Positions 12,402-34,173 of a DNA stretch of 46,870 nt are shown in pieces. Positions within the stretch are counted from its first letter, which is position 1. The number at the start of each line of letters is the position of its first letter. This DNA comes from a virus, in the IMG/VR virus record IMGVR_UViG_3300009285_002163, positions 1-46,870 of that record; one strand, 5' to 3'. The position numbers were made by a program, and so were the translations under genes. The notes below the pieces were generated by a model that was not told where the DNA came from, made no database searches, and was given only the letters and a program-made list of their open reading frames with translations.

Positions 12402-12416
12402 ACTAAAGGACGAACG

Positions 12417-12952: not shown

Positions 12953-13668
12953 CCACACCGGAAATTGTCTCTCAAATCCTGATGTTGCCGGAAATCGCCG
13001 ATATGTCGAGGCGAAGACTGGCGAATGACGGGAAAGTTGTTTACGAGCCTGTGCCCTTAACCACGAAGCAACAGGCCGTGGAGCGGTTTCTGCCGATGGT
13101 GGTCAGGGCTACGGCCAGAAAACATCCGTTCAGTTTTCTTGTGTCTGAAACAACTTTTACGGGGGGCACTACGGCCTCAACGGCTGATTATGAACTTCAG
13201 GGGGAAGCTTCTGATGCGGCCGATATTCTGATTATTCAGTATGGAGATAATGAGGTTCCGTTGACCTACAAGAATTACAACGACCTGTTGGTTTTGAAAA
13301 CACAGGTGTCGGTTGATGAGGTCAAGTACTGGTCGATTAAGAACAAATCTGTTTCGGGGTATCCAGTTGTTACGATAACGGCAACGCCGACGACTACGGG
13401 TGAACAGATAAAGTATCGGTATCTGCGAAACGACTACAATGTCCAGATGTGGGATGATGACTTTATTGCCGCCCTTATCTGTGGCGTGGCCTCGTTTCTG
13501 GTCCCGAAAGCAGTTCGTGATTATCATAGGGAATGGGCCGACCGCTTGGCGAGTATCATGGAAGATGAGGCGAGCGAGAAATCACCGGGGGATCAGATAC
13601 CGCAAGACCCGTCGTATGTGGCGCAGATGATAGAGCTTAATTCGCTCGGAAAGTTCGGTCAGGCATGA
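12949..13668 (+). CDS. Head-tail adaptor-like protein 1
   Basis: The 239-residue product has the features of podovirus head-tail adaptors of the T7 gp11/P22 gp4 kind: an N-terminal helical part (TPEIVSQILMLPEIADM), a long beta-hairpin-rich middle (residues 70 to 155), and a helical C-terminus (DDDFIAALICGVASFLVPKAVRDYHREWADRLAS) in the position where these proteins pack against the portal. It has no signal peptide, unlike the next two genes. Assignment rests on shape and gene order: capsid, small proteins, adaptor, nozzle. Confidence 0.6.
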   Translation: MTTPEIVSQILMLPEIADMSRRRLANDGKVVYEPVPLTTKQQAVERFLPMVVRATARKHPFSFLVSETTFTGGTTASTADYELQGEASDAADILIIQYGDNEVPLTYKNYNDLLVLKTQVSVDEVKYWSIKNKSVSGYPVVTITATPTTTGEQIKYRYLRNDYNVQMWDDDFIAALICGVASFLVPKAVRDYHREWADRLASIMEDEASEKSPGDQIPQDPSYVAQMIELNSLGKFGQA

Positions 13669-14375
13669 AACGATTATGGTTTTTACTCCTGTTGGTAATG
13701 GCCGTTGAGGTGCGTGCCGATGTGCTTGATTCGACGGCCCAGTATTACCTGAAGGTGAGACAGAACCTTGGACTTGCGACGACGAACACGACGACTCTGC
13801 CAAATGCGGAGATTGAGGACTATCTCGATGAGGCGGTGTTGACAATCTGCCAGGGCATGAAAATCATCAGAGCGGACAAGACGGCGCTTACGACAGTACG
13901 AGTGAGTACGTATGCGTTTACGGCTTTCGACAGTTTGGCAATCGGAGTTATAACCGTATTGATGCAGAAGGCAGACAGTCTGAAGACATTGATCTATCGC
14001 CCGCGCGAACAGTGGTTTTCTTCATCGCAGACAGACGAGGAAAAACTGGCCGGTTCTGGAACATTGTGGGCGCGATGGCCACTCTATTATGATTATTCCA
14101 CGACCCACATTTTTCTGTATCCACCGCCGGGAGCAAGTAACGATACAATCAAAGTCGGAGCTATCCTCAAACCGCCAGGTCTGGCTTCCAACACTCTCTT
14201 GACGACTATCCCGACTCAATTCCGGCACCTTGTTTTGACATACACTACGTGGTTGGCGGCGGCGGCGAAACAAAATCCCATGTTGCCTGTGATTTTCACA
14301 CGGTTACAACTTGAACTCTCAGCTTTAGGATGGAAACTCGATGCTTCGGGTGCTCTTATGCCTCTTGGCCGTTAA
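13665..14375 (+). CDS. Adaptor-like virion protein with an N-terminal signal peptide
   Basis: The 236-residue protein begins with a textbook Sec signal (MKRLWFLLLLVMAVEVRA, cut before Asp-19). After it comes a head-tail-adaptor-like body: helix 'IEDYLDEAVLTICQGM', strands, then 'LVLTYTTWLAAAAKQNPM' and a final helix. The order of a helix-rich start, central beta part and a C-terminal helix pair resembles small adaptor or gp6-like proteins. The gene overlaps its left neighbour by ATGA and its right neighbour by 35 bases. A signal sequence on a cytoplasmic assembly protein is unexpected. Confidence 0.55.
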   Translation: MKRLWFLLLLVMAVEVRADVLDSTAQYYLKVRQNLGLATTNTTTLPNAEIEDYLDEAVLTICQGMKIIRADKTALTTVRVSTYAFTAFDSLAIGVITVLMQKADSLKTLIYRPREQWFSSSQTDEEKLAGSGTLWARWPLYYDYSTTHIFLYPPPGASNDTIKVGAILKPPGLASNTLLTTIPTQFRHLVLTYTTWLAAAAKQNPMLPVIFTRLQLELSALGWKLDASGALMPLGR

Positions 14376-16920
14376 TGTGCTGGCGCAGGAGAAGGTTGTT
14401 CCACTCCACGATTTCAGCGGTGGGCTGAACACTATTGCGTCTGATTTCTCCATTCAGCCGAATGAGTGCAGACTTGCCAACAACATTGACTTTAGTCGCA
14501 ATCTCGGTGCGCTGACCAAAAGATGGGGCTACGATTCCATCGCTACTAAATCAGCCACTGATTCCTTCCGGGGCATGCTCGGCATTACATGGGAAGACGG
14601 TACAAGTCAATTGGTTGTGGCAACAGACGACTCCGCTAAAGGATACGGCGGTATCTATCTCCTGCCTAAATCGTCGGTGAAACTCGATAGTGCTCAGAGG
14701 ATATGGGATTACTGGTCGGCACAGGGACAGACGAACTTTCTGGTCTTTCAGGATAGACTCTATGGAGTGAACGGATACCAGAAAGGGTTCGTCTACGAGA
14801 GGCAGGGCGAGACGGACATCGTGCGGTCGTTACCAATTCAGGCGCCAGGGGAACCGCTTATAACCCCGATTTCATGTAGTGACACTGCAACGTATAAGCT
14901 CTCAGGTGAATACCGTTACACCTTTCGCGTGAAAGCCGAATCGGCAAATGTCTGGGTGACGAGGACAACCGGCTATATCGCGGGTCCGGTCAAAATCAAT
15001 GGGCGTGCGGTTATACGCTTCGCTCCCTTCGCCCAACAGGACACCACCCAATACCCCTATGACGTTACCGATAGTGTCCGCTGGCAGGTGTGGAGAACAA
15101 AGGCAAACCCCGGACGGCTGGACAAACTGGACAAGTTCTATCGCGTCGGTTATGGGGATACCACGAGCATCGGCGGCACCAGTTTCGCCTCGAAGATATT
15201 CATAGACTCTGTGCCGGATTCTCTCTTGTCTTCGACGGATACGTTCAGCGTTGATGCCATTGACGCCTATGTCGGGCGCGATTCGCTCAAGGTGAACGTA
15301 AATTACCGATACGGCGCGCCAGGATTCAAGTCTTGTTCATCGGCCGTCTACACAGGTGCCCTTGACTCAGCTAAGACGCATGGCGTTTTCTTTGGCCTTC
15401 CCTACTGTACGGATTCGTCCAAGTATGAGAAGTACATCTATGCCGTCGCATATAGTGTGACTTTCTTCGATTCTCTCTTGAATATGGAATCAGACACGGG
15501 AAGGTCTCTTTTCGTCTATGACGATTCGGGTACTCTCCCCATTCGTAAGATTCGGGTATCCATGCCGAAACGACCGGACAGCGTGACGAATCTTCATCTT
15601 CGTCTTTATCGGGCGCACCTGATGGCTGTTGCGCGGGATACGAATATCCTTCTGTTGGAAGGCGATAACAGTATTTTGGATATAATCAAAATACGAAAGA
15701 TGTTCGGCAAGCCATACACTTTGGGCAACCCCCCTCCCGAAACCTTTGTCAGCTGGAATGACGCGACGAAACACTGGAAACTGTTTCTCAAGGCATTAGT
15801 TAACGACACTATCATGCTCGGTCCGTATCATTTATTGGCACAACTGCCCGGCAATACGGCGTTGTTTACCGATTCAGTGCGCTATGATTCACTTGTGAAA
15901 AATCCAATCTTCCACCGTTCCGTACCGCCGCCGTTACTCAAGTATTTGTTCTCATACGACAATAGAGTTATCGGGTTTGCCGGTTCGGGAGAACATTGGT
16001 CATTCCCCGATACCGGCGGGGCATGGGGAACGTTCGCCTCGGTTGAGATTAATCCGGGTGACGGTGAACAGATAGAAGCATCGTTTCCGGCGCGTAACGT
16101 CATTCGCATAATGAAAAGCCGCTCAAGCTGGAACCTGTATCAAGATGCTAATTTAGAGTGGTCGCTGACAGAGGTGGCCGCAAGGACCGGATGTATCGCT
16201 ACAAACTCATACCAGCGTGGCGCCGGTGGGCACTACTATTTTTCCGAGTACGGCGTGATACAAGAAAACGAGGGGCAGTATCTCGATCGCACCCAACAGG
16301 CGGGCTTAATCTCGTCCAAGCTCAAGAACTTCGATGCCCTGCCAATTACCACAAAGAGAACCGCCAAGTCTTTCTATATCGACCAGACCTATCTTCTTAA
16401 CATCGGTGACACAACCTATGCGTTCTTTGAAAAGGCGGGGGCATGGGCTACCTGGACCAACTTCAAGATTGGTGGTGCTACGCTTTTTCGGAAGGCGAGT
16501 CAGGTTGACTTCATTGCCCCCGACACAATGTACTTCTACAAGCCTAACGGAAAGACGCTCTTTCGCTATAAGTCAAGCGAGAGCGACAACGGCGCGGAGA
16601 TTCTCTGGCAATGGAAGTCGGCACTCTTGTTGACATCCCCAACATGGAAGCAGATAACGGGGTTTGTACTGTACTCCGAGTCAGATACGGGTACGGTATT
16701 ACCGTCTGTCATCACGAATCAGGACGGGGATACGCTTGGCGGCGTCGGCGTACACATTAGCGACAGTCTGAGCAATTACATACGATTCAAGGGTGCACCA
16801 TCGTCTCTTGGCGGGTACGGGTTTTCGATTATGCCCTATCACAACACGCCAAAAAGACTGGTGATTCACGGCATAGATGTTTACTACACCGAACACGGGA
16901 TTGGCTTGCAGAGAAAGTAG
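14341..16920 (+). CDS. Tail nozzle / tail tubular protein B-like, with a signal peptide
   Basis: The 859-residue protein carries, right after its leader, the motif DFSGGLNTIASDFSI.PNE...NNIDFS...GALTKRWGYDSI, which is the standard beginning of podovirus nozzle proteins (T7 gp12, P22 gp10 group). The rest is beta-rich with many Asp/Ser/Thr, consistent with a beta-propeller-like nozzle. The leader is MLRVLLCLLAVNVLA with Gln at +1. AGGATGG seven bases upstream supports the ATG at 14341; a GTG at 14377 would remove the leader but has no ribosome site. Tail nozzles normally attach in the cytoplasm, so the leader is odd. Confidence 0.75.
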   Translation: MLRVLLCLLAVNVLAQEKVVPLHDFSGGLNTIASDFSIQPNECRLANNIDFSRNLGALTKRWGYDSIATKSATDSFRGMLGITWEDGTSQLVVATDDSAKGYGGIYLLPKSSVKLDSAQRIWDYWSAQGQTNFLVFQDRLYGVNGYQKGFVYERQGETDIVRSLPIQAPGEPLITPISCSDTATYKLSGEYRYTFRVKAESANVWVTRTTGYIAGPVKINGRAVIRFAPFAQQDTTQYPYDVTDSVRWQVWRTKANPGRLDKLDKFYRVGYGDTTSIGGTSFASKIFIDSVPDSLLSSTDTFSVDAIDAYVGRDSLKVNVNYRYGAPGFKSCSSAVYTGALDSAKTHGVFFGLPYCTDSSKYEKYIYAVAYSVTFFDSLLNMESDTGRSLFVYDDSGTLPIRKIRVSMPKRPDSVTNLHLRLYRAHLMAVARDTNILLLEGDNSILDIIKIRKMFGKPYTLGNPPPETFVSWNDATKHWKLFLKALVNDTIMLGPYHLLAQLPGNTALFTDSVRYDSLVKNPIFHRSVPPPLLKYLFSYDNRVIGFAGSGEHWSFPDTGGAWGTFASVEINPGDGEQIEASFPARNVIRIMKSRSSWNLYQDANLEWSLTEVAARTGCIATNSYQRGAGGHYYFSEYGVIQENEGQYLDRTQQAGLISSKLKNFDALPITTKRTAKSFYIDQTYLLNIGDTTYAFFEKAGAWATWTNFKIGGATLFRKASQVDFIAPDTMYFYKPNGKTLFRYKSSESDNGAEILWQWKSALLLTSPTWKQITGFVLYSESDTGTVLPSVITNQDGDTLGGVGVHISDSLSNYIRFKGAPSSLGGYGFSIMPYHNTPKRLVIHGIDVYYTEHGIGLQRK

Positions 16921-16926
16921 GGCGAT

Positions 16927-17541
16927 ATGGCATACGGCGATTACGGTCAAGATTACGAAACATGGCGGGCTGACCCGTATGGCAATTTGAATCGGCAATA
17001 CCCCACCATGTCGGGAGGCATTGGTGGAGACACGGACCAATACGCCGAGCTTCTCAAGCGGCTCCAGAAACTCCTGCAAGGCGGGGGATTCGGTGGTGGG
17101 CAAGGTGGTGGTATAGGTGATGCCCTCCAACAAGGCGGTGGGGCGGCCATGATGGCAAATCCCATAGTAGGCGCTGGCATGATGGCCGGTGGTACTCTCT
17201 TGAAAGGTCTTGGTTTGAGCGGCCAGCCGCAATCAAGCAAGTACGCCAAGCAGATGTATGGTCAGTTGGGTAGTATGGAAGGACAGAAGATTCTCCGACC
17301 GATGGAATATGCGAATCAGGCGTACAGCAGCATTGGGCGGCACATGCAGCCACAAGCCGAACGGATTGGACAACGACTCAACCTTGATTCCGGCGCGGCA
17401 CAGGGAGAGATTCTCCGTCTTCTGGCACAAGGGAATCAGGACTGGTTGTTGAACGCTTTACCACAGGCTGACGTTGCGAACGCCAACTACAATCTGGACA
17501 TAAAACGGCTGAAAGCGGCCCTGTTAGGATACATCCAGTAA
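16927..17541 (+). CDS. Gly-rich internal virion-type protein (204 aa)
   Basis: Residues about 50 to 105 are Gly/Met/Ala-rich (GGGFGGGQGGGIGDALQQGG, then NPIVGAGMMAGGTLLKG), a hydrophobic glycine-zipper-like segment as in small ejected proteins (T7 gp14, P22 gp7/gp20 type). The C-terminal half is helical and Gln-rich (AERIGQRLNLDSGAAQGEILRLL). It begins six bases after the nozzle gene and opens the group of ejection-type genes. Such proteins leave the capsid and help form the channel through the cell envelope. Confidence 0.6.
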   Translation: MAYGDYGQDYETWRADPYGNLNRQYPTMSGGIGGDTDQYAELLKRLQKLLQGGGFGGGQGGGIGDALQQGGGAAMMANPIVGAGMMAGGTLLKGLGLSGQPQSSKYAKQMYGQLGSMEGQKILRPMEYANQAYSSIGRHMQPQAERIGQRLNLDSGAAQGEILRLLAQGNQDWLLNALPQADVANANYNLDIKRLKAALLGYIQ

Positions 17542-17550
17542 GGAGGGGCC

Positions 17551-18318
17551 ATGTTAAGCGCACCGGATACATTTTTGAAACAACTGGCCTTCGCTCTTGG
17601 AGAAGGTGTGCAGAGTCTTCCCGACCGCTACCGTCAGGCGCAATCGGATAAGATGACCTATGGGATGAATGAGATGAAGTTGTTGTCTGAGGCTCTGAAC
17701 CAACAGAGAGAGGGACAGCGATTCGGCATGGAATCGGAAACGGAACGGTTAAGACAGGATCAGTATCGGGCGCAGACTCAAAAGGCTTTACGACCCGATG
17801 CAGAGGGTGAGACTGATTTCAAGGCGCGGATGTTAAAAATTCTTTGGCCAACCCTGACACCGGAAGAACAGGCACGGTATCTTGGCACGGCAGCGAAACA
17901 GGACATGACGCCGAACTACAGTCCCGCCGGGGTCAAGAAAGCCTATGAGGAAAGCGGTGGATTCGTGCCAAGCGGTTGGACACGGCCAGCGCAAGCAAAG
18001 ACTGGCCCGACAGGTTTGCAGAAGACTGGCCTGACAGGCTTGCAGAAGACTGGCCTTATCAGTCAGATATTGACTGAACGTCGGCTCCAGTTCCCCCAAT
18101 ATAAAGGAGTCTATGAGGATACGGCAGGGTACAAAGCGACGTTTACGCCACAATATCGAAAGAACATATCCGACAGTCTGCAATTCCTCAGACCGGAAGC
18201 ATTTGGCGAAGATGTTTCACGTGAAACGCCACCTCCCGAAAATGACGGGTCTATGACACCGCAAGAATATGAACGATTCAAACAGGCATGGTATACTAAT
18301 CGTTTGTGGGAAAAGTAA
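17551..18318 (+). CDS. Internal virion-type protein with an 8-residue tandem repeat (255 aa)
   Basis: AAGGAGGGG precedes the ATG. The product is polar, Gln/Arg-rich and helical in the first half (SDKMTYGMNEMKLLSEALNQ), with a flexible middle in which an 8-residue unit (KTGLTGLQ) is repeated about three times (residues 150 to 170), then another helical part. It is probably a companion of the Gly-rich and the 1389-residue proteins in DNA ejection. No homologous family can be named from the sequence. Confidence 0.6.
   Translation: MLSAPDTFLKQLAFALGEGVQSLPDRYRQAQSDKMTYGMNEMKLLSEALNQQREGQRFGMESETERLRQDQYRAQTQKALRPDAEGETDFKARMLKILWPTLTPEEQARYLGTAAKQDMTPNYSPAGVKKAYEESGGFVPSGWTRPAQAKTGPTGLQKTGLTGLQKTGLISQILTERRLQFPQYKGVYEDTAGYKATFTPQYRKNISDSLQFLRPEAFGEDVSRETPPPENDGSMTPQEYERFKQAWYTNRLWEK
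17998..18060 (+). repeat. 24-bp tandem repeat (about 2.6 copies)
   Basis: Units begin at 17998, 18022 and 18046 with AAGACTGGC; the first two differ at three silent or near-silent positions, and the third is partial. It encodes KTG(P/L)TGLQ and looks like a recent expansion in a linker. Confidence 0.85.
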
Positions 18319-21300
18319 ATGACCCTCAAAGAACAATACGGGCAATATCTTCCTACTACTTGGGATCGACAGCCCCATGAGATTGAGACCATGCTGGAAG
18401 CGCCCCCGCAAGTAAGTGATGTGACGGGCGTTTCCCCGATGGCGATCTCCGGCGCTCGGAAGGCGTATCCCAGCAGGGAATACTCATCAGCCATACAGCA
18501 AGGGATGGAAGAATTGCTTGGTCCGATGGAATCTATGGCCCAAGATGAGAAGGTCATTCCAGTAACCAGAAACCTTGTACGCGGTATTCTGTCTGCTGTC
18601 CTGACAAGCCCTGCCGCTATGGTTGAAAGTCCACTGACCATTCCAGAGGATGTGTTGGGAATGCTCGCGAGTGCGGGCAAAAACTTATATGGGGCAGTTG
18701 GCTCCCCAATTGATTTTAGCAAAACCCCGTACCGCCTATCAAAAAAAAGCGTGCCGAGGTCATATCCTATGTTCAAAGGGGAATCGGAATCGAATATCCA
18801 GCCGAGTCTTACAGCCGAAACGCCCCGAAAACTACCGAGCCTGACAGAAAGTTCATGGGTGCCGCTCCCAGAGACGGACACTACCCAACAAGCGGCCCTG
18901 CATCGGATTGGAGAGAATCCTGCCGAGATTCCGTTGGCTGCCCTAACCCTTCTCGGTATCGCCAAAGGACTAAGGGGTCCCAAGATGCGGGTGACCAACC
19001 TAACCGAGCGGATGGCTGAGGTGTCCCCTGAGGCCCCTATCGGCCCCGTAGAGGCAGCCAAAATCGAGCCGACTCCTACCCCTAAAGCCGAACCTACCGT
19101 GCCCACGGAGGTCCCGAAGCCCCTTCAACCTCCCTCCCAAGTCGAGGCGGTAAAGGGTAAAGAGCCGTGGGAAATGACGAGGAATGAATTTAGAAAATTA
19201 ATGGTTGAAGGTCGGAAAGAAGAAGTCCAGAAATTTGAAAAACAGTATCGGGCAGTATCTTCTTTTGAAAATGCTACTCTTCCCGAGGCAATGAACCAAT
19301 ATGCTGTTGATTTTTCTTATGAGAATAAGGCGCTTGTCAAGAGATTCCGTAACATCAAACCAGAAGACGATGTGATATTATATCGTTCTATAAGTATTCT
19401 TGACCCGGAAAAGACAATTGAACCTGGTGACTGGGTGGCGCTTGAACGTCAATATGCTTCTATGCATGGGCAACTCGGTGAACAAAAACCGCGCATGATA
19501 ACCAAAAAAGCAAAAGCAAAAGATGTGGTTTGGGCGGGTACTTCTGCTGATGAATACCTTTATGCCCCAGAACGCTTCAAAAATAAAGATATTCATTCGA
19601 CGCATGAGATGGTCATAAATGATGCCTTACAATCTGGCAAACCTGTCCCCCCTGAAATCATAGCCGATTATCCCGACCTTGCGGCAAAGTACGGGGAGCC
19701 GCCCGCCAAACCGCCGACCGAGCCATTGACGCCAAAGGCTCCCAAAAGTCCTGAAGCTATTGGTCTGAGGGTCAAAGACATTGAGGAAATACGGTCGGAA
19801 ATGGGCATGCCGCCGATTCCAAAGGCCAAACACCCGAAACTGGCCGAATCACGACAAACCGCCATTGACGAACAACTTCCCGCGAAGGCCAAAGATATAG
19901 CCGATGATGTGATGAAAACCGGCCGGACGATTACGGAAGAAGAACATGCGGGCATGGTGTTGCGGACGGACGAATTGAGGAAAGAGTTTGCTTCTGCCGA
20001 GGCCGAGGCCGTCAAATTGGCTGAAACCGGTAATGAAGGTGGTGCCGCTTTAGCTCGGTCCAGACGGGATATGTTCATGCAGGAAATAGAGGAAATCACA
20101 CAGGCCGCCCGTCAGTCAGGTGGAATTGTCGGCAGTCAACTATCGACTATCCGGCTTCGCATTAACCCCGAAAATATGGAACTTGCCACGATTGTACGGG
20201 AAGCGCGGGAAGTTTCCGGCAGAAACCTATCTGAGCCGGAAATCGCCCAGTTCAGGGACATTGCCGATAAATACAAGGTTCTTGAAAAGCAGATTCTTGA
20301 GTTTCAGCAAAGAGACGAAACGGCTTTTATGCGAGGATTGAAAAGCCAAGCCGAGTCTGTTGCCCAACTGGAAATCAAGAAGGCCCGTATCTCCATGAAG
20401 GCCGCCGGTCAGCGCGAACGTATTTTACTCGAACGCACCGAAATCAAAAAGCAATTGCAGGACCTGGGCTATCGGTTGAACGACGTGACCGGAGTGACTC
20501 TTGAAGGCTCTTATCTCATAGGCAAACTGGCCGTTAACTACATCAAAGAAGGAGTAGTTGACTTGGCCGAGGTTGTCCGGAAGGTCATGGCGGATATACC
20601 TGGTATCGCCGAAAGGGATGTCTGGCAGGGAATGAATGCCCGTGACCCAAAACGGATGGCCATTGAACGGACCGTGAAACAAAGGCAGTTATCCAATCTC
20701 AAGACTGAATCTCGGTTACTGGACGAAATAGACAAGGCTTCTCAGGGGATTTTCAAAGAGACAAAACCCCGCCCTGAAATGCCGTCAAGAATCAGGGCTT
20801 TGCAGAATCAGTTGTCAGAACTTCGCCGACAAGCCTATGTTCGTGACCCGTCCGCAAAGGTAGACCGCGCCATACAGACGATTAACGAGCTGACTGACCA
20901 GTTAGAAGGATTCAAGAGAAATGTCAGAAGACGGAAACCGATTGATCCTCCTGAATTAACAGCTTACAAGGCGAAAATTGTTGACCTGAGAAAGCAAATG
21001 CGCACACAGGATAACATCCTTGATTTAGAGGAACAACTGCGTACCGGAAACTTGAAGATTGACCCGAAGCGTGAATCGGTAGTTTCCGAAGCCACAATGA
21101 AATTGCAGATTGAACAGAAGAAACTCCGACTGAGAAAACGAGACGCCGTTGAGAATCTGAGAAAGCGGACCATGCTTCAAAAGGGTGGGGAGCTAATCAA
21201 TCTCTCCCGAACAGCGAAAACCATCGGTGATGTTTCAACGACCTTCCGGCAGAATCTTGTTTTAGTGTCGAAACGAATGTTTACCGACCCTGGGCGGCTC

Positions 21301-22488: not shown

Positions 22489-22757
22489 TGACGAAGAACA
22501 GTGTGACGTGGAAATGGTTGGCGGTAGGCATTTTGCTTCCGGTTGTCGGCTTTGGCGGCGGCCTTGCTCTAAGCGAGAAAATCAAAGAGGACCGCAAACA
22601 GAACAGGGAAATCGAACAGTTGAAAATAGACGCGGCATTCAATCAGGCGGTCATCAAGAGTATAGTCGATAAATTGGCTGAAATAGCTCCCGCGGTTGAA
22701 CGTACAGACAAGCGCACGGAATCACTGCTGGTGGTTATCTCGGAGAGACTGCGATAG
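22488..22757 (+). CDS. Membrane-anchored coiled-coil protein (i-spanin-like or accessory)
   Basis: The 89-residue protein has one N-terminal membrane segment (WKWLAVGILLPVVGFGGGLAL) followed by a charged coiled coil (EKIKEDRKQNREIEQLKIDAAFNQ ...). The N-in, C-out topology with a periplasmic coil is that of an inner-membrane spanin subunit, but it lies far from the lysis genes, between the ejection protein and the fibres. No outer spanin is visible nearby. The ATG at 22488 overlaps the previous stop as TGATG. Confidence 0.6.
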   Translation: MTKNSVTWKWLAVGILLPVVGFGGGLALSEKIKEDRKQNREIEQLKIDAAFNQAVIKSIVDKLAEIAPAVERTDKRTESLLVVISERLR

Positions 22758-22771
22758 AGAGTGAGGCATAG

Positions 22772-25700: not shown

Positions 25701-27544
25701 ACTCCGCGAAGATGGCCGACAGCGCCAAAACGGTCAGGGCGAATGTGTTGGATTCAACCAATCTCAAGGACGCCTCTATCCCACTTGTGAAAATACATCA
25801 GAGTGGGGCGACTCTTGGACAGTTCTCCAAGTGGGACGGCAGTGACTGGGTCCCCGCCGATGTTTCAATAGGTGCCGATCCGACTTTCTATGGTGACGTG
25901 ACGTTCTTCGGTTATCCGCGCGTGCAGAATGTGTCAAGCCAATGGGACTTAAATAAAGCGGTTGCCATGTACGCCGATACGTTTCTGACAATTCATGTAG
26001 GAGATACGATTAAAGACATCTGCATCGGAGAAGATACTACTTCGGCGGTCTACTCACAATACTCCTGGGTGCATCTTGGGGGGGTCTACATCCCGAACGG
26101 ATGGAATGGTTATAATCGCTGGATGGCTGGAACGCCGTATACGTGTGGTCCCGCGTCTGAACTTCCGGTGATGCGTGTATCCAATGACGGCATTACGTGG
26201 ATTGCCGTTCCTGGAGCGGCAAAACTGATTGCTTTCAAGACTGAATGTGATACAGCCCACGGTGACACTGCGAACTATCTGTCTGACATTGAGTTGGTAA
26301 TTGGAGCAGACGGGAAACAATGGGTCTACTGGCGGTCAACGGATTACATTGATTCTATTTTCACTGACGGGTGGAATTATACTGTCGCTTCTTCTATATG
26401 GTGTAAATCAACCACTAACGGGACAACGTGGTCAACAGCCAGAATGGTTGTGCCGTGGGATACGGCGGGTAGTATTACTATCAATCAGTCAGGTCTCTCT
26501 CCTGCGGTATGGCTTGACAGTAACAGTACATATAAGATGATGTTCGTATCAAACACCACCACCGCCCTCTGTCTATGGCAGGCCCCGCAACCGGACTCTG
26601 GTTGGGCCTTTGTTGACTCTGTGAAGAAAGAGGGAACCTCTGATTATCTCGGTCTGAGCAATTCGGGGATTTTCGACAGTTTACCGACCGGTGCGGCTTT
26701 CTGGCATCTTGAAGTAATACCCGTGGCAGGTGATGAAAAAATTCTTCTTCTAACGGCCAAGAATCCGACGGTTGATGTCACTTGCCCGTTCCAAACATTT
26801 ATTGGCAGAACGAGAGATAACGGAGTAAGCGTCTATCTGCGGGCCAAGTGTATCTTTCCAGAAAATTATAATATGGATACAATCAAAACCACTTCTCCGT
26901 GGGATGCTGGTGGTCAATATCGTGGTACGGGATGGGTGGCTGACAGGGGATATGGGAAAGAAATTGAATACATCTATGTCGGCTATAATGCTAAGATCGG
27001 AGCAAGCCCCGGATTTAAGCCTGGCCGCACGTTCATTCGGTTTGACAAAGACTACGAGACGGTTGACCTGAATCTGGTGGCAAGTAAACAAAGATGGGCA
27101 CGAACAGATTCGCTCTACCTGACTCTGGATGTAACCGACTCTCTGACGCAAGACACGGCTTACCTGCTTGAGAACTACACCGCACAAGGCAGTGATGCGG
27201 ACACGTTTTCGGTCTACGGATTCGTCTCTGATACATTTCAGGTTGATAGTGTTATCATCTCCTACTCGACATCAAATGGCACAACTACAAACGTCAAGAT
27301 CGATTCAGTGGCCTTCAAGAAGAACGGAGCACAAGGGGACCAGTGGGGGACGATGGTGAGCAATGTTTGGTGTGGTTCTGGCACTGACCGGGCCAATACA
27401 TCCCTGACGCGATTAGCTCTGCCGTGGCGGTTTACCATGCTGACACCGGGGGACAGGGCGGCAATCAAGTTCTTCACAAACCTCAGTCAAGACGACTCAT
27501 GGTTGAGAATAGAGAAGGTCCAACTGTACGGGTACAAACTATGA
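22772..27544 (+). CDS. Tail fibre with sialidase-like C-terminal propeller and signal peptide (1590 aa)
   Basis: The leader MKRLLYLLLLVLAATSVFG with Gln at +1 is a classic Sec signal. Residues 100 to 1010 are Gly/Ser/Thr/Asp-rich fibre sequence with repeated 'DSxxxD', 'GDTV' and 'I.GSD.LYVKAGGI..GQI' elements usual in phage fibre shafts. From about 1050 the sequence changes to a Trp/Asp-rich domain with Asp-box-like motifs (VSNDGITW near 1136; STTNGTTW near 1212), which suggests a sialidase or glycosidase-type beta-propeller. The last 130 residues form a separate beta-sandwich-like domain. A receptor-binding and possibly glycan-cleaving role is inferred. Confidence 0.7.
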   Translation: MKRLLYLLLLVLAATSVFGQGSPPAPDRWKKTGTVLSPRGTPTEVRIRVIGDSVVFYGLGSGYIDPTMLLNDFRVLDGNIVESDTLYVKAAGYLYVGGNYITDFVTTTDNGLKISGSGVVGTILGDSVSGGEVNRYTLQKVNFDSTQTVTWAAIYLASGGAGDSLNRVMNKKYIDTTLAGLHIENSPTLNYVLKRTATGASWQADVGAASGDNVVVIDSNGTTRDMSPAVFMALDASMKLGVSAGLDTVYLRSAGGAGGIDTTHFLNITVGDTVAGTRTFNWGAARFDSLGSLDVDSIRVDRTISFSGGSVYSMADVAGIKSAAGGSGGTALVLYGLNAAGGNASTITFNYSTDSTITLQIGANPWRFRHDTMTYLDGITPHRGKIFGTFMSTDSATIAGQLLNDDDDIVSVAELPDLMAFSQAGATRDSFVYKNASGTAVGFLSYRSSVFSIGSMAGYTLNLVGGSSGSINLGGNNIDSAGAIHADRIKVDSFAYLGAFNAPQTRGINMRAPVATYTTNQLILPIPSTGSDGYVLAKTATVNGDSTYWIAQSGGGGGGNPIYIDNGSTITVADSIAFKGTGGIVVTLAQKTGVDTATIAATGLTESNFATDAGIATEAEVGDTATAITARLPWAFKGTGNGKDTTYWSGITANEVMMYRRAGTIADSFMLRPSSASDVLVLGGSPGLIKLDTAAIAQMYYKAVVTADSALVTVGAMTASSVGTKDSAAVNVGGSTRIYPINRVIVWDDGIGTALVRTAVNGTTDSINIDLNYDNSTIGINGSDQLYVKAGGIATGQILDGTILAADLNATMGSAVTINWAQSSFGNLDSLGADTVHTQFLRMAKQGTIEADSGSIRQLDSLGFTNVAVKVKINLGTSGGHIKGVGNVYSGGDGMNFIVDTTQAQAVAEGFTFGLQSHSATWGDPSLWYFYGINPTSALDSFAFRMYCDTLFASPTRKGYLKNFKGAYIDTLHGKADSAKMADSAKTVRANVLDSTNLKDASIPLVKIHQSGATLGQFSKWDGSDWVPADVSIGADPTFYGDVTFFGYPRVQNVSSQWDLNKAVAMYADTFLTIHVGDTIKDICIGEDTTSAVYSQYSWVHLGGVYIPNGWNGYNRWMAGTPYTCGPASELPVMRVSNDGITWIAVPGAAKLIAFKTECDTAHGDTANYLSDIELVIGADGKQWVYWRSTDYIDSIFTDGWNYTVASSIWCKSTTNGTTWSTARMVVPWDTAGSITINQSGLSPAVWLDSNSTYKMMFVSNTTTALCLWQAPQPDSGWAFVDSVKKEGTSDYLGLSNSGIFDSLPTGAAFWHLEVIPVAGDEKILLLTAKNPTVDVTCPFQTFIGRTRDNGVSVYLRAKCIFPENYNMDTIKTTSPWDAGGQYRGTGWVADRGYGKEIEYIYVGYNAKIGASPGFKPGRTFIRFDKDYETVDLNLVASKQRWARTDSLYLTLDVTDSLTQDTAYLLENYTAQGSDADTFSVYGFVSDTFQVDSVIISYSTSNGTTTNVKIDSVAFKKNGAQGDQWGTMVSNVWCGSGTDRANTSLTRLALPWRFTMLTPGDRAAIKFFTNLSQDDSWLRIEKVQLYGYKL

Positions 27545-28905
27545 CCAAGTATATTCTCTTACTTTTACTGATACCCACGCTTTTATTGGGAGCGGGGACA
27601 GAGTACGACTCCACAACTAATCCGGCATGGGAGTGGCCGGATACGGTGACAACTGTCAACACATCTGGTCGAGATTTCAGGGGATATAGCCAACATCTTT
27701 GGATAGACTCGTCGGGAGCATTGTTTTGTCTCTATCCGTGGGGTTCGTCTGGTCTGTTTCACTTCTTTGGCACCTACAACAATTTCACTTCGGTCTGGAC
27801 GAATGCGGCCGAACCGAACCTTGGTGTTGCCGCTGGTGCATCATTCGGTGATAGCTCATTCATCATGTACCATTCGGGAACGGGGGGGGTCACGGCCCGA
27901 TGTTTCTTTGCTAAATACAATGATAGCGCTCGTGTTGTGCTTGATACCATAGAGACAAATACTGGAAGTTCGACGACGCCGAATTTCTGGTTGGTTGGCA
28001 ATACAATGTTGGCCTATCACCGTCGCAACTTAGATGTGAATCAGACAGGGATTCTCTACAAGGCGGCCTCGGCCATACCAGCCACGACACCCTGGACTAT
28101 AGTAGACAGTCAAAATACTGGTGGACAACAATGGGGTTCGGGTTTCCGTTGGGGTATGCCGGGGGGAATCTGTATATATCTCGATGCTCAAGACTCAATT
28201 ATTTACGCCGACTCAATCAATGGCTTCGATACGCTCTCCGGCACAGCTATCGGCATCAGCCCTCAGGTTACGTATGGGACCGCACAAGCGGCTCTTACTT
28301 ACGACATAGACTGGTATCGCGGGGACACTCTGCATATCGCCTACATGAGAAGTGAATCGCTGTACTATGCCAAGTTTTATCGGTCGGGGACATTTAATTC
28401 TCAGACGATAACACTTATCGGTAGTCGTGTGTGTCTTGAGGATTCAACACAGGTTATCACGCCAATTGCAAGTGGAACGCCTGGATTCCTCTACTCTCTT
28501 CCACAACTACAAATCTCGACGGTTGGGCGCGGCGATACGGTGTTCGTATTCTACCTTCTCCATCCCGATCAGGCATCACCGAGACTACCTGCCATCTATT
28601 ACAAGATGTCAACTAACGGTGGGACAAGTTTTGGAGCGCGAACACTTTGGAAAGATTCGACTTCAACTCGGAAATATCACCAGTTGACGACGCCATCAGT
28701 GATACCGAGAAACTATCCGGCGACAGGACAGATACGTCTTGTTGCGGCTTACAAGGACTCTACGGATACAGCAGCGCGTGACATCATCCGGTTCTATACG
28801 GAGATATTGAGTAGCAGTAGTGGGGCACCGGGACATCGACACGAACCACGCGGGACAGCCGTTCACCATAGCCCACAGGGCAGCACGGCGAGACACAAAC
28901 CATGA
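27541..28905 (+). CDS. Signal-peptide-bearing propeller-like tail protein A (454 aa)
   Basis: The start at 27541 overlaps the previous stop as ATGA; a longer frame from 27424 lies inside the fibre gene and is rejected because the 27541 ATG begins directly with a signal (MTKYILLLLLIPTLLLGAG). The mature part is Ser/Thr/Trp-rich beta sequence with an Asp-box-like STNGGTSFGA near residue 355, similar in style to the C-terminal region of the fibre. The C-terminus is His/Arg/Pro-rich and disordered. It is a paralogue of the next gene. A role in receptor or glycan binding is inferred. Confidence 0.65.
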   Translation: MTKYILLLLLIPTLLLGAGTEYDSTTNPAWEWPDTVTTVNTSGRDFRGYSQHLWIDSSGALFCLYPWGSSGLFHFFGTYNNFTSVWTNAAEPNLGVAAGASFGDSSFIMYHSGTGGVTARCFFAKYNDSARVVLDTIETNTGSSTTPNFWLVGNTMLAYHRRNLDVNQTGILYKAASAIPATTPWTIVDSQNTGGQQWGSGFRWGMPGGICIYLDAQDSIIYADSINGFDTLSGTAIGISPQVTYGTAQAALTYDIDWYRGDTLHIAYMRSESLYYAKFYRSGTFNSQTITLIGSRVCLEDSTQVITPIASGTPGFLYSLPQLQISTVGRGDTVFVFYLLHPDQASPRLPAIYYKMSTNGGTSFGARTLWKDSTSTRKYHQLTTPSVIPRNYPATGQIRLVAAYKDSTDTAARDIIRFYTEILSSSSGAPGHRHEPRGTAVHHSPQGSTARHKP

Positions 28906-28915
28906 GGAGCGATAA

Positions 28916-30298
28916 ATGAAAAGGATATTTAGTATGAAATATCTGATTTTGCTGCTGTTGCTCCCGACTCTTTTGACTGCGGGGACGTTGTATGAACCTG
29001 CAACAACTTCGGCCACCACTATTGGTACTGCGACTGAGGGTAAGGGCGGCTTCGGGAAAATGGGATTCAAGGTAGCCGTTGAAAGTACGGGAACGGGATG
29101 GGGGTTTCTCATGGGACATGGCTCCAGCAATATAAAGTTGCTTACGTACAACGGTTCTACCTGGACGATGAATACTGCCTTTTTTGGATTCACTGGTGAC
29201 GATGGCTCTTCCTACTATGGTATTCAGGCATATGGAGATTCAATGTTCGCCTACGGCCAGGAGGGCGTCAATGCGAATCTCACTATCAAGAAGATTGTTG
29301 GTGTGACCCCCGCAACAACAGGAAATGATACTGTTGCTGCTGCTACTTCGGCCGTTCGTGCTGGTCTTGTTTTGCTTAATAGCGGTCGTTCAGGGAAGAC
29401 CGGCACCGACAGTATTATGATGCAATTCCGATGGGAAACTACTACAACGGATACCAACTGGGTCGTCAAGAACAATGGGGCTTTGGCCTCAAGTAACACC
29501 TACACAAAGACAGACACCAACACAACGATTTTCCCCGAAGGGCCTCGCATCCCATACTGGTACGGGAACGCACTTCTAATTTTTGACGAAGAAGGTCTTG
29601 ACCTATTTATCGAAGATTCGACCGGTCATAGAAGTACATTGACGACCGCTCTCTTTGACATGGGTGCTCCCCCAAATCAGTGGCCAGGCATTGCCAGCTT
29701 GGACCAACTTCAATACACGATGGTGACAAAGGCGGACACTCTCTATTTAGCCTGGCAGGACGCGGAGGTCTGCTATGTGAAGCGCATGAGGATCAGCGGC
29801 TCTCCGCCGACAACTCTGACCCTGATTGATTCGACTATCATTCTTGCGGCCGCCGATATGCCAACTCCGGTCGTGGCAACTAATCCGGGTTATCTAACGA
29901 CCTTCTGGGAACCACAATTCACAGTCGTTGCTGATACGGTTTATCTCTTTGGCCACTGGTGGGCAGACCAGGCGAATCTGGATTCAGCCGATATTTGCTA
30001 TTGGAAGGGCGTGGGTGCTTCATGGGGAGAGAAGACAATACTACTTGCGGCCGTCAATCAACGGGCATGGTGGAGGTTACAAGCACCGCCCTTTGTTCCA
30101 ACAAATGGTGGAGCGTACACTATCCCGATTGCTCTCTGTGACAGTTCATCGGGATCAAATCAGGACTCTCTCTACGTGTATGCGGAGACATTTGGTTCCG
30201 GTGGCGGCGGAACTCCCACAACTAATTTGGTGGTGCGGGGTGGTGTCATCCGTACAGGTGTTCTTCGCAACCGACCGGAGATACTATGGCGCGACTGA
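28916..30298 (+). CDS. Signal-peptide-bearing propeller-like tail protein B (460 aa)
   Basis: GAGGAG precedes the ATG at 28916; a second ATG at 28934 begins MKYLILLLLLPTLLTAG. It parallels protein A closely in leader and in the first mature residues (AGTxY.xxT) and has the same beta-rich Ser/Thr/Trp composition and length. It ends in a Gly-rich linker and VVRGGVIRTGVLRNRPEILW. The two genes probably arose by duplication and may bind different surface sugars. No catalytic residues can be named. Confidence 0.65.
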   Translation: MKRIFSMKYLILLLLLPTLLTAGTLYEPATTSATTIGTATEGKGGFGKMGFKVAVESTGTGWGFLMGHGSSNIKLLTYNGSTWTMNTAFFGFTGDDGSSYYGIQAYGDSMFAYGQEGVNANLTIKKIVGVTPATTGNDTVAAATSAVRAGLVLLNSGRSGKTGTDSIMMQFRWETTTTDTNWVVKNNGALASSNTYTKTDTNTTIFPEGPRIPYWYGNALLIFDEEGLDLFIEDSTGHRSTLTTALFDMGAPPNQWPGIASLDQLQYTMVTKADTLYLAWQDAEVCYVKRMRISGSPPTTLTLIDSTIILAAADMPTPVVATNPGYLTTFWEPQFTVVADTVYLFGHWWADQANLDSADICYWKGVGASWGEKTILLAAVNQRAWWRLQAPPFVPTNGGAYTIPIALCDSSSGSNQDSLYVYAETFGSGGGGTPTTNLVVRGGVIRTGVLRNRPEILWRD

Positions 30299-32046
30299 TA
30301 ATAGCTGTTCTCATCTTTTGTTTGTCTCAGTCGGTTGGCGCGTCGACCTACTATCTCAAGAAGACCGGCAATAACTCAAACAGCGGTAAGAGTTGGGCGA
30401 ACGCATGGCTGGATTTCACCAAGACCAATTCCACTATTGCCGGTGGTGACACAGTTGTTGTGGGACCTGGTTCATATTTTGGCACTATGATTGTGCCTCC
30501 TGCCAACAGCAATCCGCTTGACCGAACCGTCTATATGGCTGGGGATAGTACGACGGGGGACAGTGGTTCTGTGCCGGTCCTGAATGATCCCGGTATCGCC
30601 TACTACAACGGGTTGAGCAATCCGACACGGCTTGACTTCGAGGCCAGCATTGCGATGGCCAAAGAGTGTACGGTATCGGCAGCGACGACAATAGCGTCAG
30701 GGAGTGCGTGGACACTCTATTCTGGGACTGTTTACCAGTTCACTATCGCCGTCCCCGAATGGACTGAGTATCCAGGCAAAACCCCCGCCATTGCCGGACA
30801 AGACACGCTCAAAATCAACGCCTATTCTGACTTGGCAACTTTGACCGGAGCAAGTGGAGCAGGGCTGTTTTACAACATTTCCACCGGAGTTGCTTACGTT
30901 CGCACCAGTACGGGCGCATCTCCCACGGGATTCAACGTCTATCTTAGTCGCAGGCCGACTATTTCAACGTACTTTGTGAACACAGCCAATTATGTAACAG
31001 TGCTTGGCTTCGATGTCCGATGGTCACAATTTGGCGGCTTCAATCTCGGTAATTCGCCCTATTCGCCTGATTCGTGCTGGCTTGACCATTGCCGAGTAAC
31101 GAGGGTTTCGGAATTGACCGTTTCCAATGAGGGAGCGATGTCGTCAAGGGGTGGTGGAACTTGTTATGGGAATCGAGTCCGGGCCTGCTATGTTCGCTAT
31201 ATCGACGAGAATGCTGGCGGTCCCAATCGCGCCACTGTTCATACTACCTATGCACAGGACAATTTTGTTGTGGAAAGTTGTTTGGTTATAGGAATCAACG
31301 GCGTTGACTTCAAAAATCAGGGTGGCACCCCGCAGGGACGCAATAATTGTTTCAAGTTCAACACCGTGGTTTCCCCTCCGGCTTACTGCTACTCCATGCT
31401 CGGCAACCAAATTGACGACTCTTGCTATGGGAACTACTTTTTGAATTGGGAGAGTAACGGAGTGCAGATGGGGCACGACCCCGGCTATGGCGGAAATGCC
31501 TGCTATGGTCATTTCATTCAGAACAACAGTTTTTACAGCACATACGCTGGGAGCAAGGGTGCGATGGTGATGTCGCAGGATGGGAGTATGGTTCCAGCAA
31601 CCCCGTCTAATGACTTCTGGCGGTATAACATTATTCAGGGATGCGCCGACCGTCCCGTCATTACGACAATTACAGGATACGATACCTCGTGGTTGTGTGC
31701 TACGAATCGATATTGGAATTCGGAGAATGAGTTTTTGTATGGCGGGGGGCCAACCTTCACTGCGTGGTCAGCGTATGCTTCTGGTGTCTGGGCGGGTAGT
31801 GTCTTACAGGAAATTGGCTCGACCTTCTCCGTAACTCCGCCAACTCCTGCGGTTGGTGGCTATAACGACCCCGCGAATGGCGACCTCTCACGACCCAACT
31901 CATCTCAGGAAATAGACGTGACTTACGGCGGTGTACGTTGGACTCGTATCGGCGCGTGGCAACCAACGGCCGCTCTCACTGAAAAGACGAAGGCTTCGGG
32001 GACTATCACTGTCCCGTCGGGTTTAGGAGGTATCAATTTCAAATGA
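30286..32046 (+). CDS. Right-handed beta-helix tailspike-like protein with signal peptide (586 aa)
   Basis: After the leader MARLIIAVLIFCLSQSVGA the protein starts STYYLKKTGNNSNSGKSWANAW, with GGDTVVVGPGSYFGTM following. This is the usual opening of pectate-lyase-like or DUF1565-type parallel beta-helix proteins ('YYVs..GnDsnsGtsw..aw..i..GDTv.v.pGtY'). Repeated short strands with Asn and Gly turns run to about residue 480, then a smaller C-terminal part. The likely role is binding or depolymerising a surface polysaccharide. It overlaps the previous gene by 13 bases and the next by ATGA. Confidence 0.75.
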   Translation: MARLIIAVLIFCLSQSVGASTYYLKKTGNNSNSGKSWANAWLDFTKTNSTIAGGDTVVVGPGSYFGTMIVPPANSNPLDRTVYMAGDSTTGDSGSVPVLNDPGIAYYNGLSNPTRLDFEASIAMAKECTVSAATTIASGSAWTLYSGTVYQFTIAVPEWTEYPGKTPAIAGQDTLKINAYSDLATLTGASGAGLFYNISTGVAYVRTSTGASPTGFNVYLSRRPTISTYFVNTANYVTVLGFDVRWSQFGGFNLGNSPYSPDSCWLDHCRVTRVSELTVSNEGAMSSRGGGTCYGNRVRACYVRYIDENAGGPNRATVHTTYAQDNFVVESCLVIGINGVDFKNQGGTPQGRNNCFKFNTVVSPPAYCYSMLGNQIDDSCYGNYFLNWESNGVQMGHDPGYGGNACYGHFIQNNSFYSTYAGSKGAMVMSQDGSMVPATPSNDFWRYNIIQGCADRPVITTITGYDTSWLCATNRYWNSENEFLYGGGPTFTAWSAYASGVWAGSVLQEIGSTFSVTPPTPAVGGYNDPANGDLSRPNSSQEIDVTYGGVRWTRIGAWQPTAALTEKTKASGTITVPSGLGGINFK

Positions 32047-32942
32047 AAAAAGAAGATAAACTCGTTAAGTGGGCAGGGACTATTCTGGTTGGCCTCGCAT
32101 TTGTGGGTGGTCTGTATTTGAGCGTCTACGGAACTACCGTTGTAGTGCAGGCAAGTTGGAACTTCCCGACACAGAAGATTATCTACACCCAAGAGGCTGA
32201 TGGCTTGCTCATTTTCCAAGACACCATCACCGATGGTTCACAGTCGGTCAACTTGTCAACTACGGGACGCGATGACAGCCTGAACATTTGGCATTTCAGG
32301 TTGTGGGAAGATACGACCGGATTACCCTGGAGCTTTCTCTATTACCGCGACTTGAACGCAAGTGCTGACGCGTCTGAGTCATGGAACGTGGATACCCTCT
32401 ATCTGCCCGATACTGCCGACACGGTAAAACGGTTGCTTTTAAGAGACGGGACGACAATCAACACCCGCACGTACACGAATGTCGCCGCCATTCCCGAAAC
32501 AACGTACACGGTTGCAAGCGGCACGTTTAGCGAAGTTCTCTATCAAATCAAGTACGACGCGACGGATACTTTCAGCACCTTTAACCTCGCGTATGACTTG
32601 CTCGGTGACAGCGTTTCGGGAGGCGGCATACCTTCAACCGGCCACGCATGCAGAGTAACCGTTGTAGTGAAGACCTTCCAAGAACTACCTGATTCAGGTC
32701 GGACGATAACGGTCTATCCTGTGAGGAACTTTGTCAAGGATTCTACGGGGCAGGTGATAACCATGCAGCCGATAAAGAGCACGACCAATGCCTTAGGACA
32801 GGCCAGTTTTGACCTGATGTGGTCGAACTACTTTATCCCGCCGCTCAACTACGTGTACGTCATGGTGACACCCTATGGGAGTCTGAGAAAAATAGATAGC
32901 GTACCGTCAACAACAACATATACATTCTCATTGATTCGTTAG
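32043..32942 (+). CDS. Membrane-anchored beta-rich tail-cassette protein (299 aa)
   Basis: One hydrophobic segment (WAGTILVGLAFVGGLYLSVYG) after a charged start fits a signal anchor or uncleaved leader. The body is beta-rich and Thr/Asp-rich, and the last 100 residues (RVTVVVKTFQELPDSGRTITVYPVRNF ... GQASFDLMWS) resemble an Ig-like or carboxypeptidase-regulatory-like fold. It closes the fibre cassette and is followed eight bases later by the holin-like gene. The function is not known. Confidence 0.65.
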   Translation: MKKEDKLVKWAGTILVGLAFVGGLYLSVYGTTVVVQASWNFPTQKIIYTQEADGLLIFQDTITDGSQSVNLSTTGRDDSLNIWHFRLWEDTTGLPWSFLYYRDLNASADASESWNVDTLYLPDTADTVKRLLLRDGTTINTRTYTNVAAIPETTYTVASGTFSEVLYQIKYDATDTFSTFNLAYDLLGDSVSGGGIPSTGHACRVTVVVKTFQELPDSGRTITVYPVRNFVKDSTGQVITMQPIKSTTNALGQASFDLMWSNYFIPPLNYVYVMVTPYGSLRKIDSVPSTTTYTFSLIR

Positions 32943-32950
32943 GAGGTTCT

Positions 32951-33193
32951 ATGACAACATTCTTCAAAGAGAACGGGACTTTGCTGACCATCCTGATTCT
33001 CGGCAGTCTGTTCATCATCTTTGCGGGCATGGCCATGCTCAAGGGATTATTGGGCCCCGATGTGTTCTTACAGTGGGCTGGCGGTATCTTCGGTGTCGGC
33101 TCAGGAATCAAGTTGGCCCATAGCAACGCCAAGAAACTGGCCGATTCCTATCCGACCCCTCTTGCCGGACCGTATGCAGAGAAGAAGGACTGA
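32951..33193 (+). CDS. Holin-like small membrane protein (80 aa)
   Basis: AGGAGG precedes the ATG. The protein has two hydrophobic segments (LLTILILGSLFIIFAGMAML and VFLQWAGGIFGVGSGIKLA) with a short loop and a charged tail, as in class II holins. It overlaps the endolysin start by TGATG, which strongly supports a lysis role: it would form holes that let the endolysin reach the wall. Confidence 0.7.
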   Translation: MTTFFKENGTLLTILILGSLFIIFAGMAMLKGLLGPDVFLQWAGGIFGVGSGIKLAHSNAKKLADSYPTPLAGPYAEKKD

Positions 33194-33603
33194 TGCTGAG
33201 CGTAGAATCAGAAAAGAAACTGAGTCAGTGTCATTCATTGCTTCAAGCAGTGATTCGCCATGCGGCCAGAGAGATGGACATGAACGTCTCTTGTGGACAC
33301 AGAGAACAGGACGAACAAGACGCAGCTTTCACGTCCGGCAAATCAAAGGTCCAGTGGCCGAACGGAAAACACAATTCGCTCCCCTCTCTTGCCGTCGATG
33401 TCCAACCACTAATCAATGGGAAAATCATTTGGGGAAACACGCCTCGTGAAATGTTCCAGATTGGTTACATGTCGGGTCGGATTATGCAGGCGGCAAAGGA
33501 TATGGACGTGAAGGTTCGGTGGGGTGCGGATTGGGATGGTGACATTGACACAATCGAAACCGACTTTCTCGACAGTTTTCATTTCGAGTTAGTCAAACCA
33601 TGA
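33193..33603 (+). CDS. M15-family peptidoglycan peptidase (endolysin)
   Basis: The 136-residue protein has the zinc-ligand set of M15C L-alanyl-D-glutamate peptidases: His60 and Asp69 in KHNSLPSLAVDVQP, and His130 in DSFHFEL, with HREQDEQDAAF before them as in related endolysins. It has no signal sequence, so release depends on the holin-like protein of the preceding gene. The length is normal for a single-domain M15 endolysin without a binding domain. It would cut cross-bridges at the stem peptide and cause lysis. Confidence 0.9.
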   Translation: MLSVESEKKLSQCHSLLQAVIRHAAREMDMNVSCGHREQDEQDAAFTSGKSKVQWPNGKHNSLPSLAVDVQPLINGKIIWGNTPREMFQIGYMSGRIMQAAKDMDVKVRWGADWDGDIDTIETDFLDSFHFELVKP

Positions 33604-33614
33604 AAGGAACCTAT

Positions 33615-33677
33615 ATGAAGAAGGGTCAGAAGAAGCCGAAACCGATGCCGAAGAAGAAAGGCATACCGTATGCGTAA
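33615..33677 (+). CDS. Lys-rich mini-protein (20 aa)
   Basis: AAAGGA precedes ATG 33615, and the frame MKKGQKKPKPMPKKKGIPYA ends inside the start of the next gene (8-base overlap). Nine of 20 residues are Lys. A start at 33600, overlapping the endolysin stop, would add five residues. Tiny proteins of this composition occur in other phage genomes, where they are usually not annotated. Its role is unknown; a membrane- or DNA-binding peptide is possible. Confidence 0.5.
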   Translation: MKKGQKKPKPMPKKKGIPYA

Positions 33678-34173
33678 AGTCGTACTTATTATTACTCTCG
33701 GACTGGTGGCGGGGTCGGCGTTCGGACAGTTCCAAGCCAACACTCTTGGGTCCGGAGGGGTACTTTGGGACAAGGCTGGGATAGGGCATTTCGCCCTTTT
33801 CGCCGGAGCTGAATCAGACTTTGGTTTGGTCGTCAACGACTCACAGGGGTACGACCTCGTGTTCAGGGCGGGCTATTTCCACGTTCGGGGCGATAATCAG
33901 ATTCAGGCCATCAATGGATTCCTCGTTGCCAAGAAGTCTCTTGGCATCTGGAATACGGCCGATTGGTTTGTTGCTCTGGGTGGCGGCGGGACGATTCAAC
34001 TACGCGATGAGGCTGACATATCAAAGTCGGGACTGAAATTCGAGACAGGAATAACCGTATGGAAGAAACTGAGTGTTTTCGCTGGGTGTGATTACTATCC
34101 TATTGAGGCTGGCAAAGACCCTGTATTCGCGTATCTTGGATTCGACTTTGCGCCAAGAGTAGTGAAAAAGTAG
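33670..34173 (+). CDS. Secreted outer-membrane-like protein (167 aa)
   Basis: The leader MRKVVLIITLGLVAGSAFG with Gln at +1 is followed by alternating hydrophobic/polar strands (FALFAGAESDFGLVV, YDLVFRAGYFHV, WFVALGGGGTIQL, LKFETGITVW, KLSVFAGCDYYPI, FAYLGFDFAP). The pattern of amphipathic strands fits a small beta-barrel of about six to eight strands. It is the last gene before the terminator and follows the lysis genes. It might alter the host surface, for example superinfection exclusion, or assist outer-membrane disruption; neither is shown by the sequence. Confidence 0.6.
   Translation: MRKVVLIITLGLVAGSAFGQFQANTLGSGGVLWDKAGIGHFALFAGAESDFGLVVNDSQGYDLVFRAGYFHVRGDNQIQAINGFLVAKKSLGIWNTADWFVALGGGGTIQLRDEADISKSGLKFETGITVWKKLSVFAGCDYYPIEAGKDPVFAYLGFDFAPRVVKK

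Follow-up and report, generated by a model that had tools for sequence, protein, structure and literature searches.

In podophages it is normally the tail that closes the DNA-filled head, while both are still in the cytoplasm, and tailed phages are taught as cytoplasmic assemblers. The filamentous inoviruses have Sec-targeted coat proteins but make no preformed head; their virions leave by extrusion across the membrane. In Escherichia phage SU10 (Kuravirus; adaptor gp11, nozzle gp17) the nozzle platform contacts the adaptor ring (PMC9509320), and in T7 the filled head is sealed by the tail (PMC6702177). Tailed phages (e.g. JG068) use Sec and lipoprotein signals for SAR endolysins and spanins (PMC3765740), five rumen phages were each assigned 0–2 signal peptides by SignalP (PMC5723332), and phage DGR target proteins have been reported without signal peptides (PMC6199706). 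Leaders on podophage nozzles or adaptors are unreported in the literature that we searched, a scope outside which most subscription papers fell. By the leader rule used below, we counted leaders on 0 of 43 genes in SU10, 0 of 32 in T7, 2 of 42 in P22 (one being a spanin) and 1 of 39 in crAss001 (a lysis gene), and those adaptor, nozzle and fibre N-termini that we read in these four phages are leaderless.

The window analysed here is a linear DNA of 46,870 bp comprising an entire virus record, and its predicted gene content is that of a podophage-type genome. It encodes a DnaB-like helicase (340–1719), a small terminase (gene at 4761), a large terminase (5450–6943; phrog_38, E=1.5e-43), a portal (gene at 7109) assigned by position and size alone and matched by no family, a major capsid protein (10328–11503, plus strand; PF17236 SU10_MCP, E=3.2e-14) and an endolysin (33193–33603; phrog_465). 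Adaptor, nozzle, capsid and portal gave zero tblastn matches among 50,697 phage records, pattern scans of IMG/VR with the adaptor, nozzle, capsid, terminase and helicase returned no close relatives, and PDB sequence searches gave nothing useful. Eighty loci from a helicase alignment were discarded as relatives, their virion genes being unrelated to those of the window, and the window was ruled out as Kuravirus (SU10) proper by the absent tblastn matches and a different gene order. One product with an HExxH motif (3715–4305; HELGHFY) has 43% identity to an ORF in phage locus L089; the genome is otherwise an orphan.

A sequence-only reading of this DNA had proposed Sec-type leaders on at least seven plus-strand products, and this was borne out: all seven ORFs begin where it had placed them, and each has a charged n-region, an uncharged core of 8–18 residues and, where signal peptidase I could plausibly cut, small residues. 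Leader calls were made with a rule-based score and cut sites were read by us rather than output by SignalP. On that basis the N-termini show the usual sequence features of Sec/SPI-exported proteins, namely a charged n-region, a hydrophobic stretch of ~7–15 residues and small residues at the cut, with 13665 missed by the strict rule because charged residues precede its cut. The strict rule, which leaves out the N-termini of proteins with further transmembrane segments, found leaders on 9 of 49 window genes (10 counting 13665); among 245 other phage loci, 77 ORFs out of 2433 passed it (3.2%). Ten leader-like N-termini were observed versus 0.7 from shuffles of 50 window proteins, the binomial tail for 10/50 is 3e-6, and by number of leaders the window ranks first and contig L229 (see below) second among 247 sources. 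The reading that suits the leaders best is that of Sec signals which signal peptidase I removes. Other genes flagged by the rule are 22485, 32043, 39360 (minus strand) and 38833 (minus strand, from an internal Met). The last two lie side by side on the minus strand (38833–39384 and 39360–39728) and start with the Sec-type sequences MNKYGEMRLLFALLFLAGSCFG and MKRVILLIVLFTVLPYNLLFG, respectively; the product of 38833 has 10 Cys. A pentapeptide-repeat-like protein is encoded at 41520–42194 (minus strand).

The first of the seven, at 13665–14375 (plus strand), is an SU10-type adaptor with a leader in codons 1–18 (13665–13718; MKRLWFLLLLVMAVEVRA, predicted cut before DVLD). It matches SU10_adaptor PF24175 with E=7.5e-8 and 33.5 bits (curated cut-off 27), and its residues 22–208 align with E=8.7e-8 to columns 6–169 of leaderless adaptors, which would put a cut behind residue 18 within one or two residues of the canonical start. 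By analogy with SU10, a dodecameric adaptor ring between portal and nozzle is expected, and the site next to the nozzle gene fits. The leader-bearing start has no good Shine-Dalgarno sequence and forms an ATGA overlap with the upstream stop, and an internal GTG at codon 20 (13722), with GAGGTG 9 nt upstream, lies where adaptors canonically start. It is plausible from this arrangement that the adaptor is also, or instead, made without its leader. Bacteroidota were considered as the usual home of such adaptors, which is unsupported: one was found in 1 of 296 Bacteroidota genomes, and it is leaderless.

The nozzle gene follows at 14341–16920 (plus strand), with a leader in codons 1–15 (14341–14385; MLRVLLCLLAVNVLA, predicted cut before QEKV) and a predicted mature N-terminus of QEKVVPLHDFSGGLNT. 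Residues 17–139 match a profile of ten leaderless nozzle-family proteins (E=4.8e-6), the product also matches phrog_3287 (E=3.6e-5), and a hexameric nozzle is expected by comparison with SU10; an AlphaFold model (A3), for which a beta-propeller was expected, was too low in confidence (pLDDT 31). Near its N-terminus the protein has the motif of the GGLNT nozzle family, F-x-G-G-L-N-T followed nine residues later by N-E (here F-S-G-G-L-N-T...N-E). Family members have their mature start close before this motif and no leader, whereas a 15-residue leader precedes the canonical start in 14341. The predicted cut leaves QEKVVPLHDFS, 11 residues ahead of GGLNT, where the N-terminal alignment is gap-free, and judged by this alignment it is the canonical nozzle N-terminus after Met removal. 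A DNA pattern for the nozzle motif recovered at least 120 loci from IMG/VR; among the matches listed, the nozzle usually starts 12 residues ahead of GGLNT and in a minority of cases still further upstream, and none has a leader. A second pattern, which required Ala or Gly at the cut position and was scanned through IMG/VR to completion, gave 37 loci, with a leader-bearing nozzle in one (L229). Leaderless homologues with conserved starts near position 20, which the sequence-only reading had named as counter-evidence, are thus what we found for nearly all those sampled. As nearly all are leaderless and start at the cut, the leader should be seen as a derived addition, which is not proof of its absence here. 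The leader-bearing ATG of 14341 has AGGA at 10 nt; a GTG at codon 13, giving a nearly leaderless product, has no Shine-Dalgarno sequence, and other start codons near the cut are absent.

Further downstream, 22772–27544 (plus strand) encodes a fibre-like protein of 1590 aa with a leader in codons 1–19 (22772–22828; MKRLLYLLLLVLAATSVFG, predicted cut before QGSP), whose residues ~1100–1270 have 28–34% identity to annotated minor tail proteins. It is followed on the same strand by leader-bearing proteins of 454 aa (27541–28905; leader 27541–27591, MTKYILLLLLIPTLLLG, predicted cut before AGTE), 460 aa (28916–30298; leader 28916–28981, MKRIFSMKYLILLLLLPTLLTA, predicted cut before GTLY) and 586 aa (30286–32046; leader 30286–30342, MARLIIAVLIFCLSQSVGA, predicted cut before STYY). 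The mature part of 30286 has 12 Cys, as might be expected of a protein in an oxidising compartment; the other proteins are unremarkable in their cysteine content. After the endolysin, a 167-aa protein (33670–34173, plus strand; MRKVVLIITLGLVAGSAFG, predicted cut before QFQA) probably belongs to the envelope and not to the virion. The earlier assignment of five or six of the seven as virion or fibre proteins is firm for 13665 and 14341 and partial for 22772; 27541, 28916 and 30286 are taken as fibres by gene order alone, and 33670 is not evidently a virion protein. On either side of the fibre genes, the products of 22485–22757 and 32043–32942 (plus strand) begin with segments that are longer and resemble anchors more than clean cleavable leaders.

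Ribosome sites had been said to back the leader-bearing starts, and they do so at 14341, 22772 (GAGG at 5 nt), 28916 (AGGAG at 6 nt, strong), 30286 (GGAG at 5 nt) and 33670 (AAGG at 8 nt); at 13665 and 27541 a good Shine-Dalgarno sequence is absent, and the start is supported by an ATGA overlap with the upstream stop. These starts bear on whether leader-bearing copies could go to the envelope or outside as enzymes, decoys or exclusion factors, with the virion built from leaderless copies made at internal starts. The adaptor GTG at 13722, the one supported start found past a leader, is what such an arrangement would use, and 27541, 28916 and 30286, placed by gene order, could be secreted enzymes. 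However, the nozzle, 22772, 30286 and 33670 have no supported leaderless start near the cut, none was seen near the cut of the leader-bearing adaptor of another phage (G565:C176, see below), and it is hard to see what an adaptor or nozzle would do when not built into a virion. In 28916, codon 7 is another supported start, from which the leader is still retained. We consider it quite unlikely that dual products of this kind explain the leaders as a set; a dual start for the adaptor and a display role for the fibres are possible.

The distribution of leaders within the virion gene block separates the outer tail from the head. Leaders fall on 13665, 14341, 22772, 27541, 28916 and 30286, whereas the small and large terminase, the portal, the two genes after it, the capsid and the four genes from 11509 to 12949 (the scaffold included) are leaderless, as are 16927, 17551 and 18319 between the nozzle and fibre genes. 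By taking outer-tail genes (6 of 6 with a leader) against head, packaging and putative ejection genes (0 of 13), we obtained a Fisher p of 3.7e-5, with some of the roles in this comparison inferred from gene order or by eye. The three leaderless genes after the nozzle (16927–22488, plus strand) occupy the position where podophages such as T7 have internal ejection proteins. If the outer tail is exported, the leaders are therefore split as topology would demand, with proteins destined for the inside of the head leaderless amid leader-bearing genes. Within the putative ejection protein at 18319–22488 (1389 aa), the stretch 335–422 matches phrog_2579, named for a ParB C-terminal domain (E=1.2e-9). 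The gene adjoining the adaptor (12949–13668, plus strand) is leaderless and has a weak match to the tail family phrog_394 (E=0.013); an AlphaFold model of its product reached a pLDDT of 34, and the idea that it might be another SU10-type adaptor found no support, as it lies outside the adaptor family.

Leader-bearing nozzles were found in two further phages, the P22-type contig L229 and the SU10-type contig G565:C176. In L229 (14,959 bp, GC 36%) the portal (PF16510, E=8e-74) and the capsid (PF13252, E=7e-33) are both P22-type, and its virion proteins show no significant BLAST similarity to those of the window. A leaderless adaptor (SU10_adaptor, E=1.2e-7) is followed by the leader-bearing gene 8905, with a longer, anchor-like segment, then by the nozzle (MKKLILLFLIILLSQSAYA, predicted cut before DIAG) and by leader- or anchor-bearing genes downstream; the protein in scaffold position (L229:4967–6163) contains a run of PPAGE/PPAGK repeats. 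G565:C176 (35,948 bp, GC 60%; sampled contigs of its genome 61–65%) turned up when sampled genomes were searched with a profile, in the same phylum as a Lentisphaerae MAG, and its host is uncertain because binning errors are possible. It gave no BLAST match to the window. Its portal is SU10-like (PF23899, E=7e-7, 28.5 bits, slightly below the cut-off of 30), and leaders are found on its adaptor (PF24175, E=2.9e-24, match beginning at residue 20), its nozzle (MLQVLFALALAASSARA, predicted cut before VEIP) and a fibre-like gene (MGLWLILLLWAAGPQSAYA, predicted cut before NLGG); as in the window, the genes directly after the nozzle are leaderless. These leaders are weaker by the rule because their n-regions have little or no charge. 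Across the four sampled phyla, this was the one leader-bearing case among the nozzle-profile matches, the others, some of them weak, being leaderless.

Such recurrence bears on whether the hydrophobic N-termini are without function, whether as chance or neutral extensions, as misplaced starts or as signals outcompeted by fast cytoplasmic assembly. The leaders are called by a rule-based score and nearly all sampled homologues do without them, as this would predict; it fits poorly with a small genome that has some ten Sec-like leaders, with supported starts and placed on genes of the outer tail and the lysis side, and with their reappearance in two other phages. Absence of function is thus quite improbable in our estimate. 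A broader claim, which we put forward tentatively and with the odds somewhat against it, is that at least two lineages, one SU10-type and one P22-type, acquired leaders on otherwise canonical tail proteins, and that some podophages assemble in two compartments, with sealed, filled heads in the cytoplasm and the nozzle, fibres and in some cases the adaptor in the periplasm until lysis. Other podophage contigs encode a leader-bearing family of ~360 aa (SLSA, predicted cut before QDFFKFSTIY) close to leaderless nozzle genes (L140:1744–2817, plus strand; L202:6461–7555, minus strand). Leader-like N-termini are also seen on muramidase-like products (KTGKVESGYKYLRQ) adjoining the nozzle in L121 (1535–2092), L127 (3852–4409) and L131 (1113–1670), all on the minus strand, which are possibly signal-arrest-release endolysins.

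We suggest that the best explanation, with a probability of roughly 0.45, is an assembly split between compartments, in which the outer tail is exported by Sec and later joined to filled heads, either in the periplasm or upon lysis. The terminase, head, scaffold and ejection proteins would remain cytoplasmic, while the adaptor, nozzle and fibres would pass the Sec translocon by means of their leaders. Host signal peptidase I would then trim the leaders to leave the same N-termini as in leaderless relatives, and the trimmed proteins would fold in the periplasm. Since the cut restores the normal N-terminus, and since the nozzle platform of SU10 contacts the adaptor, cleavage is more likely than retention. 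A cleaved leader in turn means that the protein has reached the outer side of the membrane, and joining to DNA-filled heads would therefore have to wait until the inner membrane opens, at or shortly before lysis. Because the T7 tail seals the filled head, split assembly would need another seal; until joining, the portal could keep the head shut, perhaps with help from the 12949 product, which is leaderless and a candidate by its position. The periplasmic or membrane-associated tail completion raised by the sequence-only reading thus gains from the confinement of leaders to the outer tail, the canonical cuts and the two other podophages, and it is from these that we infer export, cleavage and the site of completion. 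Against a uniform plan, the adaptor of L229 is leaderless, so the divide between compartments would differ among the three phages.

Alternatively, late or absent cleavage of the leaders might keep the nozzle, adaptor and fibres on the inner membrane, where heads would dock, or uncut leaders might serve as membrane-active N-termini of the virion. No breach of the membrane would be needed ahead of joining, and the anchor-like segments of 22485 and 32043 in the window and of 8905 in L229 are in keeping with tethering. The cores of the seven leaders are nevertheless of signal-peptide length, most with good cut sites, the cut position coincides with the canonical N-terminus, and an uncut leader would sit at the N-terminus of the nozzle, a protein that in SU10 touches the adaptor ring with its platform (PMC9509320). 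Tethering is hence unlikely as the main account, and cleavage that is delayed is possible. If split assembly is correct, part of the virion would be made across the membrane, contrary to the textbook account of cytoplasmic assembly. This would raise the questions of how the head stays closed, when head meets tail and whether disulphides or envelope chaperones help in building the tail, and leaders would offer an easy way to recognise such phages from sequence.

Compared with known systems, the window has its adaptor and capsid Pfam families in common with SU10, but the adaptor, nozzle and long fibre of SU10 are leaderless and its gene order is unlike that of the window. The GGLNT nozzle family of podophages in IMG/VR has the N-terminal motif and its spacing in common with the window nozzle, yet is leaderless in all of the listed loci (at least 120) and in 36 of the 37 loci of the second sample. 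SAR endolysins and spanins are lysis proteins rather than virion parts, and the window endolysin (33193) is itself leaderless. Inoviruses are alike in having virion proteins with cleavable Sec leaders, whereas the window is a tailed phage with terminase, portal and capsid.
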